From assembly GCA_030643545.1 (NCBI GenBank), contig DAOWLE010000044.1:1-33803 (forward strand): a stretch of DNA of 33,803 nt, given 5' to 3'. A program made the position numbers and the translations under genes. The notes below the pieces were generated by a model that saw nothing but the letters and a program-made list of their open reading frames with translations, had not been told where the DNA came from and did not search any database. Position 1 is the stretch's first letter; the number at the start of each line of letters is the position of its first letter. Positions 2,709 to 17,578 of the stretch are shown piece by piece. This DNA comes from a bacterium. Lineage in GTDB: Bacteria > Patescibacteriota > Minisyncoccia > JAHIHE01 > DAOWLE01.

Positions 2709-3464
2709 TTAGAAATTAATAAAAGAATTCGGATACTTTTTTTGAATTTTTTCCCAAAGTTCTTTTGCAAATTTTTTAATTGGTTTAATCTTTATTAAAT
2801 TATAACTTTCCTCGGCGTTTTTTAGAACAGATAACAACGCGGCTTCATTTTCAGTAATACCTTTTCCAGAAGCTGTTTTTTTATCTTCTTCTATATTTTT
2901 CTTGTCTGTTTTTCTTAAGTGTAAAATTTTTTCAAAACCTTCCGGAGTAAGTTGAGTCAAAATATCGCATTCATAAACTAATTGGCCGACTTTAGTGGCT
3001 GGCTGGGGATATTCAAAATCATTTCCGTATTTTTCTTTGGAGATTCTCGTTGGATATCCTTCCTTGCCCATATGTCTAATAATAGCCAATTTTACGCTCT
3101 TTGCCAATCCCTGACTTTTCCCCATCTCCAATAAAATCTTTTCAGCTATTTCTCCGCCTTTTTCTCCATGAAGTTCAAATTCTCCAAATCCTTTAGCAAT
3201 ATCATGTAATATAGCGGATAAAACCGCAATTTCTTTTTCCCTATTATTAAAATTTTCTTCTTCTGAAAATTTAATGGCAAAATTCTTGACTTGTTTGTTG
3301 TGAATAATAAATTGTTCTATTGTTTCTTCTGAAATATTATTTGATTTGTAAAAATCTTCCACCTTTGCCTCTAAAAATTCCCAATCTTTTTCATCAGTTT
3401 CTATAGTTCCTTCTAAAAACGGTTCAGAAACATTAATTTCGTTTTTCTTGAAATTTTTTATCAT
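2709..3464 (-). CDS. HD-domain metal-dependent phosphohydrolase
   Basis: Predicted soluble HD-superfamily hydrolase of 251 residues. The metal-binding HD signature is visible in order: a His in the IIHNK segment near residue 54, the HD pair in AILHDIAKG near 87-88, a His in HGEKGGE near 99, and IIRHMG near 128. These hydrolases act on phosphate esters such as nucleotides; the substrate here cannot be told. The region from about 30 to 150 is the HD domain, and the lysine-rich C-terminal third is unassigned. It is the first gene of a probable operon with mraY and pilB and has a good promoter about 47 bp upstream. A link to cell-wall synthesis is suggested only by position. Confidence 0.75.
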   Translation of the reverse strand: MIKNFKKNEINVSEPFLEGTIETDEKDWEFLEAKVEDFYKSNNISEETIEQFIIHNKQVKNFAIKFSEEENFNNREKEIAVLSAILHDIAKGFGEFELHGEKGGEIAEKILLEMGKSQGLAKSVKLAIIRHMGKEGYPTRISKEKYGNDFEYPQPATKVGQLVYECDILTQLTPEGFEKILHLRKTDKKNIEEDKKTASGKGITENEAALLSVLKNAEESYNLIKIKPIKKFAKELWEKIQKKYPNSFINF

Positions 3465-10686: not shown

Positions 10687-11481
10687 TTATGAATTTGTTT
10701 CTGCGGAGAGAATTGCTTTTCTGTAATTACAATAATCGCATTCAGGATTGGCTTTTGGAATTTTACTGCTATTCAAACATTTATGAATGTCAAAAATAGT
10801 TTTCTCAACCCAGTTATCATTGCCTTTGTATGGAATTAGAGTAATATCAAATTCTAATTTTGCGTCAAACGCTTTTTTATCTGTCTTGCCGTTGCAATAA
10901 ACAAAATAACCAGTATCAGAAACTTTGTAGCCGTTCTGTCTGAGCAGCCACTGATAAACTTCCATTTGCCTTTTATATCCCTCGTGCCAATCCTTATCTA
11001 ATTTTGTGATTTCTTCGGCTTTGGCTGTCGCTTTATAATCAACGACAAACAATTCAGGAGATTTCTCCCCCTTGCGAAGGGGGAGATTAAGAGGGGGTTT
11101 AGCCCAAAGATCATCAATCGCTCCGAATATTAAAAGATTGGTCGGTTTATGTAAAAATTGAATGCCAGTAAAATTGTGTCGCCATTTATCTAAATCTTTG
11201 TGCGGAATCGGTTGGGCATCCACGCCGTATTTTTCAATCAAAGGATGTTTTTTATTTTTCGCCCGGCAAATGTCAAATTCTTTTTTTAATAAAGCGTCCA
11301 CCGCAGAATTCAAAGCAAACGGAAATCCCGGCGGCCGTCCAACTCCCAATTTTCTGTCAAAATAAAAACAGCGAGGGCAATTTAAAAACAAATCAATCTT
11401 TGATCGAGAAAGATTAAAAGGTTCTTTTGAACCGGAGTTGTATAAATTTTTTGTTCGTTTGGAATTGTAGTATTGAGACAT
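10687..11481 (-). CDS. PD-(D/E)XK nuclease of the Cas4/RecB type with four-cysteine cluster
   Basis: Predicted DNA exonuclease of 264 residues. It has an SRSKIDLFLNCPRCF start typical of RecB-like/Cas4 nucleases. The catalytic aspartate lies in GAIDDLW (123-124), followed by VVDYK with D148 and K150. A QMEVYQWLL helix equivalent to the QxxxY motif follows. Two Cys pairs (C35/C38 and C248/C251) probably bind a 4Fe-4S cluster. Residues about 128-141 are an in-frame insertion encoded by a palindromic repeat (11065-11100) just before the catalytic strand. The first 15 codons are duplicated at 13327-13373. There is no cas1, cas2 or CRISPR array in the window, so CRISPR adaptation is unlikely. The context points to phage defence or repair. 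Confidence 0.82.
   Translation of the reverse strand: MSQYYNSKRTKNLYNSGSKEPFNLSRSKIDLFLNCPRCFYFDRKLGVGRPPGFPFALNSAVDALLKKEFDICRAKNKKHPLIEKYGVDAQPIPHKDLDKWRHNFTGIQFLHKPTNLLIFGAIDDLWAKPPLNLPLRKGEKSPELFVVDYKATAKAEEITKLDKDWHEGYKRQMEVYQWLLRQNGYKVSDTGYFVYCNGKTDKKAFDAKLEFDITLIPYKGNDNWVEKTIFDIHKCLNSSKIPKANPECDYCNYRKAILSAETNS
11065..11100. repeat. Palindromic repeat inserted in frame in the PD-(D/E)XK gene
   Basis: A hairpin CTCCCCCTT-GCG-AAGGGGGAG (11065-11085) is followed by ATTAAGAGGGGGTTT. In frame on the minus strand it reads PPLNLPLRKGE, a peptide I recognise as the translation of a dispersed palindromic repeat in many bacteria. It adds about 12 residues to the protein without breaking the frame. 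Confidence 0.8.
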
Positions 11482-11484
11482 AAA
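11438..11484. repeat. 47 bp direct repeat, copy flanking the RT gene downstream
   Basis: Contains the start codon and first 15 codons of the PD-(D/E)XK gene. It matches 13327-13373 at 45 of 47 positions. The two copies bracket the reverse transcriptase gene. Confidence 0.92.
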
Positions 11485-11568
11485 TTTATTGATTATTTTT
11501 TGAAAAGTTTTTTGTATTTCTTAAACTTTGGAGAATGACTGTAAAACAGTTTTTGTAATGAAACCATG

Positions 11569-13194
11569 TCAATTAATAGATTTTACATACTTTACAATAC
11601 TTTTATCTAAAATATCATCTCCTTTCATAATTGATTTCAACCAATGATTTCTTTCATCTTTTGACAATAACGAAGAACAATAAATTAATGCATACCTACC
11701 TCTTCTTTCATAAACATCAATATTTGACTTATGATCTTTTATAAAGATATCATCACTTTTTAATTTTGCAAAAAAAGCTTTATCATATAATGTGTTTATA
11801 GATTCTGTTTTTAAATGTATATGTTTAAAATTCTTGTTTTGAAATAAATACGACATCCACATATTTACATAAGGATAATCTTTGAAATATTTGCTCTTGA
11901 ACAAGAAATTTATCAGTTTAATATTTTTACTAATAAAATCATTATCAACAGTTTTATTTATATATAAAATAACTTCTCTTAATATAGGAAGAAAAAGTTT
12001 AAAATTTTCTAGTATAAACTTGCGTGGTTTTTTGATTCTATAGTGTGTGCATTTTCTTATAACATACTTCAATACTTTATAATCAGAAACTTTTGAATTG
12101 ATATTTTCTTTGATTATTTTTGTATAAGCATTTGATAAAATATTGAATTGATCATTTTTTGACATTTTTTTATATATCTTACCAAAATCTAAATTCTCAG
12201 GATCTTCTTCCATATCATACGGGTCAATTCCTGTGTCATATTGATTAATTAAATCTATTTTATTCTCTATCTCATCCATTGCTTTTTTTTCTGTGATATT
12301 AAGAATATTATTATCTTCTTGTTTTTCTTCATTTTTAAAATATTTTTCTTTAAATATTTCTACATCACAAATTTTTGTCTTTTCTCCTGAAAATATAAGC
12401 CTGTGTGATTTATAAATGTAACAACTTATCTCGTGTAAAATATATTCTAAATCCTCTTTCTTTTTTGAAAAAATACGAATGTCGTCGCTGTATCTAACAA
12501 AATTACATGTATATTGTAATATCTTTTTATCAATATCACTCATTATTGCTTCAGATAAAATTGTACTTGCGGCTGGTCCTACTGGTATACCTTTAGATGT
12601 GCTCTTGTTTAAATTTAGCAAAAAATTTTCAAGAACAACAGCTTCTTCTTCTAAACTTCCTTCTCCAGCTTCAGATATCATATTTCGAACCCTATGAATA
12701 TAAATTTGATTGTAAAAATCAGCAATATCCGCCACTAATATATATCCTTTACTATATTTTTTACAAAAATCCTCAGTTTTTTTTGAAAAATCTCCCCATC
12801 CATTATCATCTTTTCTAAAAAATGATCCATCAGAAGTAGGTTTGATTCTATAAGAACATGCTATTTTTCTTCTAATGGAAACTCTGTGCTTTTCTATGTT
12901 TTTACAGATTTCATAAACTAATGCCGTATAGATAAGAGAATCTATTGGCTCTAAATTGTGTACAATTCTATAATTATAATTTGGCTTAAGAGCAAGCATT
13001 ATGTCAGGTGATTTTGGCGCATAATCAAAAATATTAATTTTTCTAATGTATTCTTTAACTTCTATCCAGTTTTCTGAAATTGAATGAAATTCAAACGATT
13101 TGGGAAAAAAATCGCTACTGTAAAATTTAAGATGGTGTTTTAACGACCATTCTAAAAATCTATCGTCAATAAATTTAGTTTTTACTTTTTTCAC
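11569..13194 (-). CDS. Reverse transcriptase, defence-associated (Abi/UG-like), class unassigned
   Basis: A 541-residue RNA-directed DNA polymerase. The palm motifs are intact: motif A LVADIADFYNQI (D156), the GIPVGPAASTILSE segment at 202-215 (family motif 4) and the catalytic YSDD at 235-238, followed by an SGEKTKI segment. A hydrophilic insert covers about 283-330. The C-terminal 210 residues look mostly helical and end with an ALIYCSSLLSKDERNHWLK segment similar in style to Abi/UG reverse transcriptases. There is no VTG motif as in retrons and no maturase or HNH domain as in group II introns. It is flanked by 47 bp direct repeats and sits between the RloB-like and PD-(D/E)XK genes. Its AT-rich codon use and many ATA and AAT codons differ somewhat from the housekeeping genes, which fits transfer. 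Confidence 0.9.
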   Translation of the reverse strand: MKKVKTKFIDDRFLEWSLKHHLKFYSSDFFPKSFEFHSISENWIEVKEYIRKINIFDYAPKSPDIMLALKPNYNYRIVHNLEPIDSLIYTALVYEICKNIEKHRVSIRRKIACSYRIKPTSDGSFFRKDDNGWGDFSKKTEDFCKKYSKGYILVADIADFYNQIYIHRVRNMISEAGEGSLEEEAVVLENFLLNLNKSTSKGIPVGPAASTILSEAIMSDIDKKILQYTCNFVRYSDDIRIFSKKKEDLEYILHEISCYIYKSHRLIFSGEKTKICDVEIFKEKYFKNEEKQEDNNILNITEKKAMDEIENKIDLINQYDTGIDPYDMEEDPENLDFGKIYKKMSKNDQFNILSNAYTKIIKENINSKVSDYKVLKYVIRKCTHYRIKKPRKFILENFKLFLPILREVILYINKTVDNDFISKNIKLINFLFKSKYFKDYPYVNMWMSYLFQNKNFKHIHLKTESINTLYDKAFFAKLKSDDIFIKDHKSNIDVYERRGRYALIYCSSLLSKDERNHWLKSIMKGDDILDKSIVKYVKSIN

Positions 13195-13233
13195 ATTATT
13201 GTTTTTATTTTCTATTAACCTTTTTTATTATCA

Positions 13234-13306
13234 CTATCTCCAAACCTCGTCAATTTCGTCTTTGATTTATTGCTCAAAAACTTCAATTAACTGTTGGCTG
13301 GCTTAT
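13234..13306 (-). pseudogene. Decayed coding fragment related to the pseudogene at 15547-15976
   Basis: On the minus strand a short frame reads VFEQ-stop-IKDEIDEVWR-stop. It parallels VFKQQIKDEIVEIF at the end of the 15547 pseudogene, with roughly 34 of 45 bases identical. The in-frame TAA shows decay. It lies inside the RT cassette, upstream of the RT start. The rest of the 187 bp between RT and the RloB-like gene is the 47 bp repeat and AT-rich sequence. No strong hairpin suitable for a structured RT template RNA is evident there. Confidence 0.5.
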
Positions 13307-13326
13307 TAGGCAAATGCAGGCGGGGA

Positions 13327-13373
13327 TTGTATAAATTTTTTGTTCGTTTGGAATTGTAGTGTTGGGACATAAA
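13327..13373. repeat. 47 bp direct repeat, copy upstream of the RT gene
   Basis: Duplicate of the 5' end of the PD-(D/E)XK gene. It encodes a start codon and MSQHYNSKRTKNLYN and then runs into unrelated sequence with a stop 12 codons later. Its ATG lies 8 bp after the stop of the RloB-like gene, where the second gene of an operon would be expected. Confidence 0.92.
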
Positions 13374-13381
13374 GTTATAAT

Positions 13382-13912
13382 TTATTTTCCCTCCATAATT
13401 GAAATTAATTTGTTTAATTCAAATATTGCCGATCTTTTAGAATCTAATAACTTTTTGGAAAATAACTTGTCGTATTCGCTCGGTTTACCACGTTTCTTTT
13501 TTTCAAGATATTTTAACTCAAACTCATTTTTACACCACCTGGAATTTTTTCCGTTTGGTTTTTTGTAAATAATTGATATAAGTAAAAATTCCAAACAAGG
13601 AGTATTTTCTATTAATTCAATTTTTCTTCTTTTTGCTTCTTGTCTTGCTTCAATCATTTCATTTTTTGGTTTATCGTTATCAAAAACAACAATTTTTCTA
13701 TCAAAAGCACCATATGTTTTATCTGCATCAATAATAATATTTTGTGCATCACCACCTTTCCCTTTTTTAACAGTCGTAGCTGTGCCACTATTGCGAGAAT
13801 ATAATTTTCTTAAATGTTTTAAAAACATTTCTTCGTTAAATCCTTCTCCGAACAGAAGAAGAGTTTTTTTTGCTCTTCGTCTTTTCTTTTTGTATGGATT
13901 AGTTCTTGACAT
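13382..13912 (-). CDS. RloB/AbiLii-like Toprim protein
   Basis: A 176-residue protein with a Toprim-like layout of the RloB family: a basic N-terminus, LLLFGEG with the conserved Glu at 23, FDND at 77-80 supplying the DxD pair, and NTPCLEFLL near 103-111, which corresponds to the family's NPxFExWL motif. RloB proteins pair with AAA ATPases in AbiL and RloA/B modules and are presumed nucleases, though their reaction is not settled. It starts 12 bp after the ATPase stop, a tight operon. The N-terminal KKKRRRAKK stretch may contact nucleic acid. The C-terminus is slightly shorter than usual, and the final HF-type motif is not evident. Confidence 0.8.
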   Translation of the reverse strand: MSRTNPYKKKRRRAKKTLLLFGEGFNEEMFLKHLRKLYSRNSGTATTVKKGKGGDAQNIIIDADKTYGAFDRKIVVFDNDKPKNEMIEARQEAKRRKIELIENTPCLEFLLISIIYKKPNGKNSRWCKNEFELKYLEKKKRGKPSEYDKLFSKKLLDSKRSAIFELNKLISIMEGK

Positions 13913-13924
13913 ATTTGTTTTATC

Positions 13925-15139
13925 TTATAATTTAGGAACGGCTCCATACGCGCCTGCAATATATTTTGCGTAATAATTATCATCGGCGCGCACTCCAGAC
14001 ACATCATCTAGACGCCAGGATTCGCTTTCTCCTTTTTCATTTTTTTCTGTGAGAATAATCTGATATTTATCTAGCTTATTTAAAACCAGATGACTATGAG
14101 TGCTGAAAAATAATTGAGCATTATTAGGATTCGTTTCTGGATGAATAAATAATTCATACAGAGATAAAACTATTTCCGGATGCAGATTAACATCAAATTC
14201 ATCAAGAACCGCAACACCTCCATTAGCTAACACCAAAAGAATAGTTTTTAATAAAATAAAAAGCTGCTTTGTGCCAGAAGATTCATATTGCATTGGGAGA
14301 TATTCAGTCCGATTGTTAAAAAAATGGGCAACTTTTACATTCATTGAAAAACTATTTTCTTTTTTCTCTTTTTTTATTTTAAACGACTCTAAACCAAGAT
14401 CAAAACGAGATAATAATTTTTCAGCTTCTTTCTTTAGTGTTTCATTTTTACTTTCACTATAGAAATCCAGTGCTTCAATCAACTGTTGATTTGCGTTAGG
14501 CAAAAGATGATCGCCAATCCAGCCAGCTTCAATAACATTAGTCTCTACTTTTTTCCAATAGTCGAAAAATTTAAGACTCTCTTTATGTCCCAAGCGAACA
14601 GCGATACTAATTATACTAGCATTGGGCCGAATTGAGTTTTCAAATCCGTTTGGAAGATTAAAACTCTTATCGTTCAGTTCATATTCTCCACTTTTCCGGT
14701 TCCACTGACGGGAAAAAATCTTCTTGCTTGTCATTTTTTGTTTGGTTTTATTTTTAACTTTCAGCTCTTCTAAAACAATTTTCTTTTCTTCCAAAATAAA
14801 GCTGTAAGTATAAATATTACCATCAATTTCAAAATCAGCCGACAACTTAATTGGTTTATTCTTCCGCTCGCCAAACATAAACGATTTTACCGGCAATGGC
14901 GTTGTTGGATTAATATTAGATGAATCTGCTATTAGCCATTTTATAAACGGCAAAACTTTCAACAAATTTGTCTTGCCAGAAGCGTTCGGCCCTATTACGG
15001 TTTCAATTTTAGAAAGTCGAGTCCCCGAAGGAGTTAAAAAATAACCATGATTGTTTGGCGCTTTTTCATTTACAACAAAACTTACCGAGCAATCTTCGGC
15101 AAATGAATAAAAATTTTTGCATGAAAATGAATGAATCAT
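13925..15139 (-). CDS. AAA15/AbiLi-like ATPase (partner of the RloB-like protein)
   Basis: A 404-residue SMC/ABC-like ATPase of the AAA15 family. The N-terminus MIHSFSCKNFYSF is the usual start. Walker A GPNASGKT lies at 50-57, the SSGTKQLF signature at about 288-295, Walker B VLDEFD at 311-316, and a switch His in STHSH. The C-terminus carries IAGAYGAVP, which is typical of AbiLi/AAA15 proteins. Such ATPases act as sensors or motors for a partner nuclease, here the RloB-like protein 12 bp downstream, so the pair resembles lactococcal AbiL. It is the first gene of the island's main operon and has an unusual AT-rich inverted repeat upstream instead of a clear promoter. Confidence 0.88.
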   Translation of the reverse strand: MIHSFSCKNFYSFAEDCSVSFVVNEKAPNNHGYFLTPSGTRLSKIETVIGPNASGKTNLLKVLPFIKWLIADSSNINPTTPLPVKSFMFGERKNKPIKLSADFEIDGNIYTYSFILEEKKIVLEELKVKNKTKQKMTSKKIFSRQWNRKSGEYELNDKSFNLPNGFENSIRPNASIISIAVRLGHKESLKFFDYWKKVETNVIEAGWIGDHLLPNANQQLIEALDFYSESKNETLKKEAEKLLSRFDLGLESFKIKKEKKENSFSMNVKVAHFFNNRTEYLPMQYESSGTKQLFILLKTILLVLANGGVAVLDEFDVNLHPEIVLSLYELFIHPETNPNNAQLFFSTHSHLVLNKLDKYQIILTEKNEKGESESWRLDDVSGVRADDNYYAKYIAGAYGAVPKL

Positions 15140-15175
15140 ATATTTGTTGTTTTTAAAATGTATTCAAATATTTAT

Positions 15176-15360
15176 GGTTGTTTATTTTGGTTATTAGAGA
15201 AACTTTTTGTGTTAACTGAATAATTAGTTGTTTCATATTAATAAAAATATTAATTAAAAATAAAAAATAATGCTCCAATATTTGTTTTAATTCTCATTTC
15301 TAACTGTAAAGAATAATTTATTTGTACTACTAATAACCCTAATAGCCAAAATAAACAAAC
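15176..15360. repeat. Imperfect inverted repeat (22 nt arms) upstream of the ATPase gene
   Basis: The arms at 15176-15197 and 15339-15360 match at 20 of 22 positions (core TTGTTTATTTTGG) and enclose 141 nt of AT-rich sequence without coding potential. It lies 37 bp upstream of the ATPase start. It could be the ends of a small mobile element or a long-stem RNA. The remaining 15361-15546 holds only AT-rich sequence and the hairpin at 15453. Confidence 0.7.
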
Positions 15361-15452
15361 TATATACAAAATATAAAATACATAAAAAAATCTATAGTTA
15401 TATGTTAGCAAAATTATATATATATGTCAAGAACCTACAAATTTTTGTATAA

Positions 15453-15483
15453 AAATGCTTAAAATCATATATTTTAAGCATTT
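15453..15483. terminator. Bidirectional terminator-like hairpin
   Basis: A perfect 13 bp stem (AAATGCTTAAAAT and complement) with a 5 nt loop has T-rich sequence on both exits. On the minus strand it would stop transcripts coming from the DpnI region before the ATPase operon. Confidence 0.7.
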
Positions 15484-15546
15484 TTTAACTCCGTTAGCAC
15501 TTTTTTAAAAAAAAGTTATCCACAATCTAAAATTTATTTCATTTTC

Positions 15547-15976
15547 TTAAAAAATCTCCACAATTTCATCTTTAATTTGTTGCTTAAAAACTTTACGGAT
15601 TATAAATTTGTTTTCACGGAGAAGCAACTCTATTTTTTGCAACGGCAAATAATTAAAATATAATTCCTATTTTTCATCTGTTATAATTACATTTTTCTTA
15701 TCTGGATATTTTTCTGAAAAAATAGGATTAACAACTGGAATATTATCAGCCATTACAACCTTTGTGTCATTTCCGTGTTTTTTCGCTATTTTCTCTAATT
15801 TTTGAATAAATTTTTTTAGTTTGATTTTACTCGCTAAAAAATAATGTATATTTTTTCTTGATTTTTTAGCAAAGTTGAAAATTTTCTTACTTTACAAAAT
15901 TATTGTCATTAAAAAAATTAGATAACCACAAAACAGGTTTGGTTAAAAATTTTGGAATCAATAATGTCAAATTCAT
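15547..15976 (-). pseudogene. Degraded gene of unknown family
   Basis: A start MNLTLLIPKF at 15976 runs for 29 codons to a stop. The reading then shifts to another frame, which stays open for about 73 codons, meets an in-frame TAG at 15667-15669 and continues about 37 codons in the same frame to a TAA at 15547. One frameshift and one amber stop would restore a protein of roughly 140 residues with basic, helical character (KKFIQKLEKIAKKHG) and the ending KQQIKDEIVEIF. I do not recognise the family. It lies 4 bp after the DpnI gene, so it may be a decayed member of that cassette. A related fragment is at 13234-13306. Confidence 0.55.
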
Positions 15977-15980
15977 AAAT

Positions 15981-16748
15981 TTAAACTAATTTATATTTAC
16001 CATCGCCAAGAAATTTTAAATAACCTTTATCTCGTAAAAATTGAAGTTGCTGTCTAATTTTGTCTTCAATGTGTTTATTTTCAGGATGTTTTATTTTTAA
16101 ATATTTTTCAAAAGCATAAATTTCATTAAGTTTAAATTCATTTTTTCCAAGTTTATCAATGCAATTCATAACATCTAAAATCCATCCTTTCAATTTTGCT
16201 TTTTTAGATTCTCTTAAAAATAAAGTTTTTTGCCAATTCTTTAAAATTTTTGCTTTTGGTTCTATTTTCTTATTTCGCACATAAAAAATTTTACCGCTTT
16301 GAGGAATACTTTGTAGTAAAATATTACATCCAATCCATCCTGCGCGACGAGCATTTAAAGACAGTGGCTTTCTTTTTTCAATAATTTCAGGAACAAAAAA
16401 ATGTTTCGGAATGATAAAAAAATTTAAAACTTCATAGCTACTAACATCATAATTTAATAAGAAAAAATTGGGATTATTCGCACTTTGCAACCTTTCTATC
16501 ATTGTTTTATATGCTCCGTCTAAAACTTTTTTTCCAATAGAATCTTTTTTGCTTTTTAATTCATATTCTTCTTTACAATTAGGACAATAAAAATCAGCTA
16601 CTGGCTTATTGTTTTCATAAGAATCAATATTTATTCCGCAATTCGGACAAAAAATTTCTTCATCAACCCAGTTTTCACTAAGCACTCTGATTTTTTGAGA
16701 AGCGCTTTTGTAATCTTTTGCGAGTTCTTTATTAAAAACTATTTTCAT
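15981..16748 (-). CDS. dpnI: DpnI-family methylation-dependent restriction endonuclease
   Basis: A 255-residue close relative in layout of pneumococcal DpnI, which cuts GATC only when the adenine is methylated. Residues 1-180 form the catalytic domain: zinc-binding Cys pairs CPNC at 34-37 and 55-58, and the PD-(D/E)XK site D52, E63, K65 in ADFYC and YELKSK. The segments NPNFFLL, LNARRAGWIGCNI and LFLRESKK correspond to DpnI. Residues about 185-255 form the C-terminal winged helix (NHIxxKIRQQL-like HIEDKIRQQLQFLRDKG). It has the full family length with nothing missing. It starts 12 bp after a truncated DpnA-like methyltransferase. An active enzyme requires that the host's own GATC sites be unmethylated. 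Confidence 0.95.
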   Translation of the reverse strand: MKIVFNKELAKDYKSASQKIRVLSENWVDEEIFCPNCGINIDSYENNKPVADFYCPNCKEEYELKSKKDSIGKKVLDGAYKTMIERLQSANNPNFFLLNYDVSSYEVLNFFIIPKHFFVPEIIEKRKPLSLNARRAGWIGCNILLQSIPQSGKIFYVRNKKIEPKAKILKNWQKTLFLRESKKAKLKGWILDVMNCIDKLGKNEFKLNEIYAFEKYLKIKHPENKHIEDKIRQQLQFLRDKGYLKFLGDGKYKLV

Positions 16749-16760
16749 AATAAATAAAAT

Positions 16761-16892
16761 TTAAATAGACAAAAAATAAGGCGGATCGGCAAAAATCATA
16801 TCAATGGAATTTTCTTTCATTTCTGCCAAAACTTTTAAACAATCTGAATCGTATAATTCGAATTTTTGTTTTTGATAGTATGGTTTAATCAT
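16761..16892 (-). pseudogene. Truncated DpnA-like adenine methyltransferase
   Basis: The ATG at 16892 begins MIKPYY and reads 43 codons to a TAA at 16761. It ends IFADPPYFLS-I-stop, directly after the catalytic DPPY motif. In full beta-class GATC methyltransferases such as DpnA the sequence continues for about 220 more residues, including the SAM-binding FxGxG motif, which are absent here. The N-terminus (KPYY, SIDMIFADPPYFLS) matches DpnA well. A longer start at 16946 exists, but the shorter one matches the family. It cannot be active. The break point lies 12 bp before the DpnI start and could be a cassette-exchange scar. The first half-site may also act as a leader ORF for DpnI. Confidence 0.8.
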
Positions 16893-17000: not shown

Positions 17001-17017
17001 AAAAGTTTTTGTGAAAG

Positions 17018-17131
17018 CAGGGCTATCGGGATTCGAACCCGAGTTACTAGGATGCCCGCCCTACGGCGGATCTCCTCCTACGGCGGATCCGCAGAAAGCG
17101 GACGCTAAAAGCGGAAAAACCTATCGTCTTA
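17018..17131 (-). pseudogene. Broken tRNA-Glu copy 1 with a 61 nt insert in the anticodon
   Basis: The 3' half of tRNA-Glu (T arm and acceptor strand) and the anticodon stem are retained. An insert at 17055-17115 separates nt 35 and 36 of the tRNA. The insert is a chain of GC-rich hairpins (CCGCC..GGCGG, TCCGC..GCGGA). The acceptor and most of the D arm on the 5' side are replaced by TAATAAAG sequence. It cannot form a tRNA. Confidence 0.8.
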
Positions 17132-17152
17132 ATAAAGTTTTTTGTTGAAAAG

Positions 17153-17236
17153 CAGGGCTATCGGGATTCGAACCCGAGTTACTAGGATGCCCGCCCTTCG
17201 GCGGGTCCGCAGGAGGCGGAAAAACCTATCGTCCTA
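17153..17236 (-). pseudogene. Broken tRNA-Glu copy 2 with a 31 nt insert in the anticodon
   Basis: Same structure as copy 1. The insert at 17190-17220 is two tandem hairpins and sits between nt 35 and 36 of the tRNA. The flank TAATAAAGTTTTTTGTTGAAAA is shared with copy 1, so the two arose by tandem duplication. The 5' acceptor and D arm are missing. Confidence 0.8.
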
Positions 17237-17257
17237 ATAAAGTTTTTTGTTGAAAAG

Positions 17258-17331
17258 CAGGGCTATCGGGATTCGAACCCGAGTTACTAGGATGAAAACC
17301 TAGCGTCCTAACCAGACTAGACGATAGCCCC
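17258..17331 (-). tRNA. tRNA-Glu(TTC), intact
   Basis: A 74 nt tRNA. The acceptor GGGGCTA pairs with TAGCCCT (G1-U72 wobble) and has discriminator G, as in other tRNA-Glu. The D arm starts GTCTAG. The anticodon arm CTAGG-TTTTCAT-CCTAG gives anticodon TTC. The T arm is TCGGG-TTCGAAT-CCCGA. CCA is not encoded. It is the only unbroken member of the four-copy array. Confidence 0.96.
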
Positions 17332-17366
17332 ATTATTGTATTTTCTTGTAATTATTAAAACTGTAA

Positions 17367-17444
17367 TTACTAGGATGCCCGCTTACAGCGGATCCGCCGT
17401 AGGCGGAAAAACCTAGCGTCCTAACCAGACTAGACGATAGCCCC
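17367..17444 (-). pseudogene. Broken tRNA-Glu copy 4 with a 30 nt insert in the anticodon
   Basis: It retains the complete 5' half (acceptor strand, D arm, anticodon stem) and the 3' side of the anticodon stem. The insert at 17378-17407 carries two hairpins. The T arm and 3' acceptor strand are missing. It is complementary in content to copies 1 and 2, which keep the 3' half. The remaining sequence up to rpmH (17445-17578) holds nothing I can identify. Confidence 0.8.
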
Positions 17445-17578
17445 ATTGTTTAATAAATCTTTGATTCTTTTTTTTAATAATTCTCTTTGTTGTCCGTTTG
17501 TTTTTAATTCAAATTGCCAAATATATCAATCAGCTTTATTTTAAAAACATAAAAATCGCCAAAATATTTTTTGGATAA

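Follow-up and report, generated by a model that had tools for sequence, protein, structure and literature searches.

The window, a stretch of 33,803 nucleotides of Patescibacteria DNA, carries an array of four tRNA-Glu copies at 17017–17444, which is read on the minus strand. Its features, and one that adjoins it, are listed here in the direction of reading.

17445–17513, minus strand: putative C-terminal remnant of a GIY-YIG ORF, FELKTNGQQRELLKKRIKDLLNN, adjoining nt 1 of copy 4
17408–17444, minus strand: copy 4, tRNA-Glu 5′ half, identical to the 5′ half of the intact copy
17378–17407, minus strand: copy 4, insert between nt 35 and 36, a 30-nt double hairpin, TCCGCCTACGGCGGA TCCGCTGTAAGCGGG
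17367–17377, minus strand: copy 4, remaining 11 nt of the anticodon arm, CATCCTAGTAA, after which the homology stops
17257–17331, minus strand: copy 3, intact tRNA-Glu(TTC) (ARAGORN; Rfam RF00005, 63.1 bits)
17221–17237, minus strand: copy 2, 5′ remnant of 17 nt, TTAGGACGATAGGTTTT
17190–17220, minus strand: copy 2, insert, a double hairpin of 31 nt
17152–17189, minus strand: copy 2, complete tRNA-Glu 3′ half
17116–17132, minus strand: copy 1, 5′ remnant of 17 nt
17055–17115, minus strand: copy 1, insert of 61 nt, hairpins that are expanded and decayed
17017–17054, minus strand: copy 1, complete tRNA-Glu 3′ half

The original prediction described three tRNA-Glu copies broken at nt 35/36 by inserts of 61, 31 and 30 nt (copies 1, 2 and 4), with the 3′ half kept in copies 1 and 2, the 5′ half in copy 4 and one intact tRNA between them. 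ARAGORN, Rfam and the alignment coordinates bear this out on the minus strand. The insertion point in each broken copy lies between anticodon nucleotides 35 and 36 (TT/C), one T being ambiguous. Copies 1 and 2 arose by tandem duplication of 105–135 nt and have since diverged; the identical point within the window therefore does not stand for three independent events, and the proposal of one insertion followed by duplication and divergence holds for these two copies only. The 15+15 layout of the copy 4 insert is the same as in 31 distinct inserts. A whole-genome match of the tRNA part of the array returned no second match in the 845-kb genome of the window (G000), and the intact copy 3 is probably the sole tRNA-Glu(TTC) gene of that genome.

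Beside the array, at 10687–16748 (minus strand), lies a defence cluster. In it, a DRT8-type reverse transcriptase is accompanied by a PD-(D/E)XK/Cas4-like nuclease, an AAA ATPase and a RloB-like protein form an AbiL-like pair, and a methyl-directed restriction enzyme of the DpnI type is also present. Immediately upstream of this DpnI gene, a 43-residue ORF (16764–16892, minus strand) with a DPPYFLS motif and no Pfam match looks like the truncated start of an adenine methyltransferase, although DpnI cuts methylated GATC.

The tRNA-Glu element and its hairpins in other genomes

The same point is interrupted elsewhere. In G012, a genome of another family, the 5′ half of that family's own tRNA-Glu and a matching hairpin insert precede a GIY-YIG ORF, after which comes an intact tRNA-Glu, and the same order was found in G247 and G491 with different hairpin sequences. 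We scanned a collection of 84,980 genomes with a pattern that fixes the tRNA letters and the first T of the insert and admits any insert of about 20–40 nt. Of the 45 hits, 33 proved to be genuine tRNA-Glu loci, to which G247 adds a further one; the other 12 had neither hairpins nor tRNA and were chance matches (for example, in Neobacillus, Salegentibacter and Lachnospiraceae); G323 and G243 in the class sample were chance matches likewise. Hairpins are present in 31 of the 33 loci, and the insert is usually exactly 30 nt; the other two (L119 and L146) have a nested form without hairpins. Nearly all of these loci belong to Patescibacteria (Uhr-, Moran-, Wolfe-, Falkow-, Kerfeld-, Magasanik-, Buchanan- and Berkelbacteria, and others). 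Recurrence at 33 other tRNA-Glu loci rules out a chance coincidence of the insertion point. Assembly error, which had been named as a possible cause of the array, is very unlikely, since the architecture recurs in independent assemblies, including the complete chromosome CP011209.1. The tRNA-Glu form is rare all the same, being found in 2 of the 18 genomes of the order and in three clear cases among 383 genomes of the class (~1%). A complete tRNA-Glu element also lies on a contig binned as Bacteroidetes (L138, SCSP01000153.1), which reflects either transfer out of Patescibacteria or a binning error.

The complete form reads, 5′ to 3′, tRNA-Glu nt 1–35, double hairpin, GIY-YIG ORF and intact tRNA-Glu. 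The insert is followed by CATC and a few more nucleotides of the anticodon arm and then, in most loci, by 6–43 nt before the ORF, whose start is mostly within 45 nt of the hairpins. The ORF encodes 80–92 amino acids and ends 1–11 nt before nt 1 of the tRNA or inside it; in eight loci (L102, L106, L108, L118, L123, L135, L139 and L147) it reads some 15–23 nt into the tRNA and stops there. The cassette is about 0.3 kb in size, with the GIY-YIG ORF as its sole ORF. In about 19 loci the left and the intact 5′ halves are identical, the homology stopping a few nucleotides upstream of nt 1, and a foreign origin is therefore visible only where the halves differ. They do so in L129, L133, L139, L148 and L112, mostly in the acceptor strand, while the intact tRNA is self-consistent wherever its acceptor register was found (as in L133, L148 and L112); the two halves thus have different histories. 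Downstream 3′-half copies with hairpins, like copies 1 and 2 of the window, are present in L104, L108 and L113.

Several loci carry further arrangements. In L119 (6153–6330) and L146 (137–315), an intact tRNA-Glu lies within an inverted repeat, CCCCACACCAATTTTT / AAAAATTGGTGTGGGG, which itself sits in the anticodon loop of an outer split tRNA-Glu; this nested form has no nuclease and is kept in the two genomes. Extra tRNA 3′ ends, which begin at or near the T loop, are found downstream of tRNA-Glu in L104, L137, L140 and L144 (in L137, preceded by a further hairpin), and suggest that this tRNA is also entered at another site. L145 has the C-terminal end of a further GIY-YIG ORF ahead of its left tRNA half, which suggests tandem elements.

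The typical insert consists of two touching 15-nt hairpins, each with a 6-bp stem and a 3-nt loop. We compared 31 distinct 30-nt inserts, from tRNAs for Glu, Ser, Pro, Asp, Cys and Gln, in which 98.4% of the 372 stem pairs (12 pairs per insert) are Watson-Crick. When partners were shuffled between sequences this fell to a mean of 71% (maximum 77%), a shuffle that overstates independence, as sequences within one clade share history. The differing inserts at one point, which had drawn attention to the array, are real, and are accounted for by a conserved two-hairpin structure whose stems are free to vary but covary. The near absence of G-T pairs (3 of 372) fits a palindrome that would be kept at the DNA level. 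Between L118 and L123 there is one compensatory pair difference, and between L127 and L142 the stems are identical despite a dS of 0.77 in the nuclease gene.

These comparisons bear on the window itself. The putative ORF remnant at 17445–17513 is of 23 residues and was the best of 1330 six-frame window peptides against the profile of the Glu-linked nucleases, at an E value that is weak when taken alone (0.058); tblastn supports it as well. It lies exactly where complete elements place the end of the ORF, and its frame enters the copy 4 tRNA and stops at the TAG of that tRNA, as in several complete elements. We regard it as a probable C-terminal remnant of the nuclease. Decay of the ORF can be followed through the tRNA-Glu form, from the full ORF to its last 46 amino acids (L144), 20 amino acids (L148) and none (L126, L137). 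The array of the window is best explained as a GIY-YIG element of the tRNA-invading kind that has decayed and no longer has its ORF. As the nuclease remnant lies directly upstream of copy 4, the window probably went through at least two rounds, in which copy 4 once regenerated the tRNA behind a nuclease gene and was later itself interrupted; the 3′-half copies 1 and 2 lie downstream of it. The small palindromic element of the original prediction is not the whole element; in the complete form it is the left junction of a nuclease cassette.

The nuclease and other tRNA genes

The GIY-YIG catalytic domain is present (PF01541, E 2.8e-16) and covers residues 1–71 of 85. Free-standing GIY-YIG homing endonucleases of the SegB kind are expected to have a separate C-terminal DNA-binding region; we found none here, the proteins of 80–92 amino acids being nearly all GIY-YIG domain. 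Residues Y5, Y16, G18, R26, H30 and E62 are invariant in 24 proteins. For the best-resolved pair of nuclease genes (L127 and L142), dN is 0.010 against a dS of 0.77, and these substitution rates indicate that the nuclease is under purifying selection. We placed the tRNA-Glu-linked proteins on a tree of 92 GIY-YIG proteins, the finer branching of which is unreliable owing to the few alignment columns. Twenty of them, drawn from many candidate phyla, group together; there are also a small Uhrbacteria group and one Berkelbacteria protein. With 2 label changes on the tree versus 21 in shuffles, they are essentially one clade spread across many candidate phyla. ORFs that do not adjoin a tRNA fall into a supported group of their own, which numbers 35 and has just one linked member.

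A search for the palindromes in relatives and in other tRNA genes, which the original prediction had proposed, returned them at tRNA-Glu and at other tRNAs. About ten of 28 GIY-YIG genes in five genomes adjoin tRNA genes. As an independent sample we took 59 Patescibacteria genomes, chosen regardless of the element, and examined 61 single-domain ORFs. Twelve of them end close to a tRNA on their own strand (Cys, Asp, Val, Pro, Thr, Gly, Asn, Ser or Arg), between −40 and +22 nt from its 5′ end, and none of the 61 faces a tRNA on the opposite strand; at a chance rate of about 0.3% per ORF, the probability of 12 in 61 is about 6e-19. Most linked cases have an upstream piece of the same tRNA, with hairpins interrupting a loop, and in the sample no clear upstream piece was seen for Val, Gly and Thr. 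The hairpins lie in the D loop in Pro, Asp, Asn, Ser and Thr, in the anticodon loop in Cys, Ser and Leu, and in the T loop in Gln. The notion of an element directed at anticodon loops is upheld as to its targeting of a site, the same anticodon point recurring in tens of genomes, and fails as to the anticodon loop being the sole target. In L248, L217 and L266 the ORF comes after the tRNA, before or after a copy of the tRNA 3′ end. A plain scan for 15+15 hairpins recovered 2 of the 12 tRNA-adjacent sample cases and missed most, because many inserts are longer or decayed. In the genome of the window, a further locus (L163, G000:C25 39104–39740) has a tRNA-Ser(GGA), some 350 nt of palindromic sequence and then a GIY-YIG ORF that belongs to the tRNA-linked clade.

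Interpretation and known systems

The architecture, its recurrence, the covariation of the hairpins, the selection on the nuclease and the target-specific nuclease clades are established by comparison of sequences. We put at about two in three the probability that these loci are homing-type GIY-YIG elements, each of which interrupts a tRNA gene within a loop and brings along a piece that regenerates the tRNA. The nuclease would break the loop of a tRNA gene that is still whole, and repair templated by a copy with the element would insert the hairpins, the ORF and the tRNA 5′ part; that part would regenerate an intact tRNA, such that the essential gene is not lost. The hairpins would label the junction; in the upstream copy they may abolish the cut site, or the nuclease may recognize their structure. 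Breaks and unequal repair among repeated tRNA pieces could give rise to the tandem and nested half copies. Cutting and homing by the nuclease are what we infer from the loci, and the insertion itself is deduced solely by reference to the paralogous intact tRNA. The differing 5′ halves in L129, L133, L139 and L148 suggest cutting of a target and copying into cut alleles, and T6 SegB lends support to cutting and repair by analogy. Against homing stands the donor, which keeps an intact, presumably cleavable tRNA, something not expected from classical homing.

We considered whether the 30-nt double hairpin could be a mobile unit in its own right, inserted at TTTT^CA-like sites by an unknown enzyme, the GIY-YIG ORF being a passenger or a separate parasite of tRNA loci. 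Dispersed double hairpins of the same family do occur in the genome of the window and in G004, and are preceded by TTTT and followed by CA in 3 of 9 and 8 of 19 cases, respectively, where 0.02 and 0.09 are expected. Hairpins without an ORF, in the window, L126 and L137, are also compatible with such a unit. The flanks fit the TTTT^CA of the tRNA-Glu loop as a candidate target core, and several of the G004 copies have longer flanks in common and cannot be counted as independent. The position of the ORF beside the hairpin is fixed across many tRNAs and phyla, and the sole such hairpin of G012 sits at the element. We consider this reading unlikely. Two double hairpins also lie apparently inside a protein-coding region of G004 (L070, G004:C17, near 3017–3155).

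Somewhat less probable still is a function for the host, in which the nuclease and the interrupted tRNA together make up a unit, either regulated or defensive, for instance in tRNA amplification or as decoys against tRNA-cutting defences or toxins. The constraint on the nuclease and the stems and the AbiL, DRT8 and DpnI genes that adjoin the array would agree with it, and in T6, SegB-driven amplification of tRNAs defeats a tRNA-cutting defence (PMC13096335). Yet the tRNA-Glu form is patchy as well as rare, decay to ORF-less remnants is frequent, and a different tRNA is struck in each host. Plain tandem duplication of tRNA-Glu with pseudogene decay and hairpins of local origin, a reading for which copies 1 and 2 might be cited, is highly improbable, as it is already contradicted by the same point and two-hairpin layout, with different stems, in tens of genomes, and by 5′ halves that are intact and not randomly decayed. 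Insertion of a REP/RAYT, Rickettsia-palindrome or intron-like kind is scarcely credible: the palindromes are GC-rich in an AT-rich genome and some are reused elsewhere in it, but the Y1 transposase (IS200-like, PF01797) is absent from G000 and G004, the holders of most dispersed palindromes, on which ground RAYT/REP was rejected, and the window has no Rfam intron or ribozyme match.

Other candidates were rejected. A group I intron in the anticodon loop does not accord with inserts of 30–61 nt, the absence of an Rfam intron match and the adjoining intact tRNA; with that tRNA beside the broken copies, splicing is not needed. Tyrosine-type integration is unsupported, the cassettes having no other ORF. 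The single IMG/VR hit, which has no hairpins, was a chance match, and a viral origin was set aside. The neighbouring DRT8 reverse transcriptase was considered as a possible copier of tRNA halves, and the idea was dropped because the element recurs elsewhere as a self-contained cassette.

If the homing-type reading is correct, the elements would be widespread, target-specific parasites of essential tRNA genes, which restore the tRNA and in this way spare their host. Roughly one in five of the sampled Patescibacteria GIY-YIG ORFs sit at a tRNA in an element-like manner. The reading would provide a function for many unexplained single-domain GIY-YIG genes of Patescibacteria and an origin for the partial tRNA copies that their genomes hold, and would open the way to a test of how an 85-residue nuclease finds a tRNA gene. 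GIY-YIG genes have been listed, without a mechanism, among those moving out of Patescibacteria (PMC12455944). Insertion at loops only, a mark conserved in structure and not in sequence, and few G-T pairs point to structure-specific recognition of DNA. On a broader proposal, which we advance tentatively and with more doubt than confidence, the elements would form a distinct class of Patescibacteria mobile elements, in which GIY-YIG lineages, each tied to one tRNA, recognize tRNA-gene loops in the form of DNA hairpins (as a cloverleaf or a cruciform), add a two-hairpin mark and regenerate the tRNA.

We found no description of such an element in the open-access literature, and one may exist elsewhere; it is apparently a previously undescribed small mobile element of Patescibacteria. 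Integrative elements with tyrosine integrases that target tRNA genes exploit the anticodon loop or the T loop, and a part that they duplicate makes the tRNA whole again. The duplicated part here is mostly the 5′ one, in contrast, and the element is of ~0.3 kb with a GIY-YIG ORF alone. In Allomyces, orf360 in atp6 is an endonuclease element that carries the end of its target gene. There, as here, insertion breaks a gene, the element supplies the replacement part and the gene stays intact; the target of orf360 is a mitochondrial protein gene, whereas here a tRNA 5′ half is replaced and hairpins lie at the junction.

Mitochondrial double-hairpin and repetitive hairpin elements of fungi and sponges (Allomyces DHE; sponge RHE) occur in genes and spacers (PMC2800124). 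They resemble the present inserts, in form only, in being short, with two adjacent GC-rich hairpins that keep their structure while the sequence varies. They differ in being mitochondrial and not tied to a regenerated tRNA, and their description mentions no endonuclease or anticodon (PMC2800124). In CPR bacteria, GIY-YIG proteins are encoded in non-intron insertions of rRNA genes, and were judged to lie outside spread by homing (PMC11270868). The bacteria are the same and a GIY-YIG gene again sits in a structural RNA gene, but those insertions are in rRNA at sparse sites, and that account mentions neither tRNA nor hairpins (PMC11270868). The GIY-YIG enzyme SegB of T6 cuts within tRNA genes and drives the amplification of tRNA segments, and in phages segB is found clustered with tRNAs of many isotypes (PMC13096335). 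SegB and related enzymes of T4-like phages thus share with the present nucleases the coupling to tRNA genes of many isotypes. Here, in contrast, the gene is chromosomal in Patescibacteria, encodes a single domain of 80–92 amino acids, is fixed to the tRNA 5′ end and is accompanied by a partial tRNA copy and a two-hairpin insert, the terms 'hairpin' and 'truncated tRNA' being absent from the SegB account (PMC13096335). The element would work like a free-standing homing endonuclease and, by size and domain content, is not a member of the SegB group.
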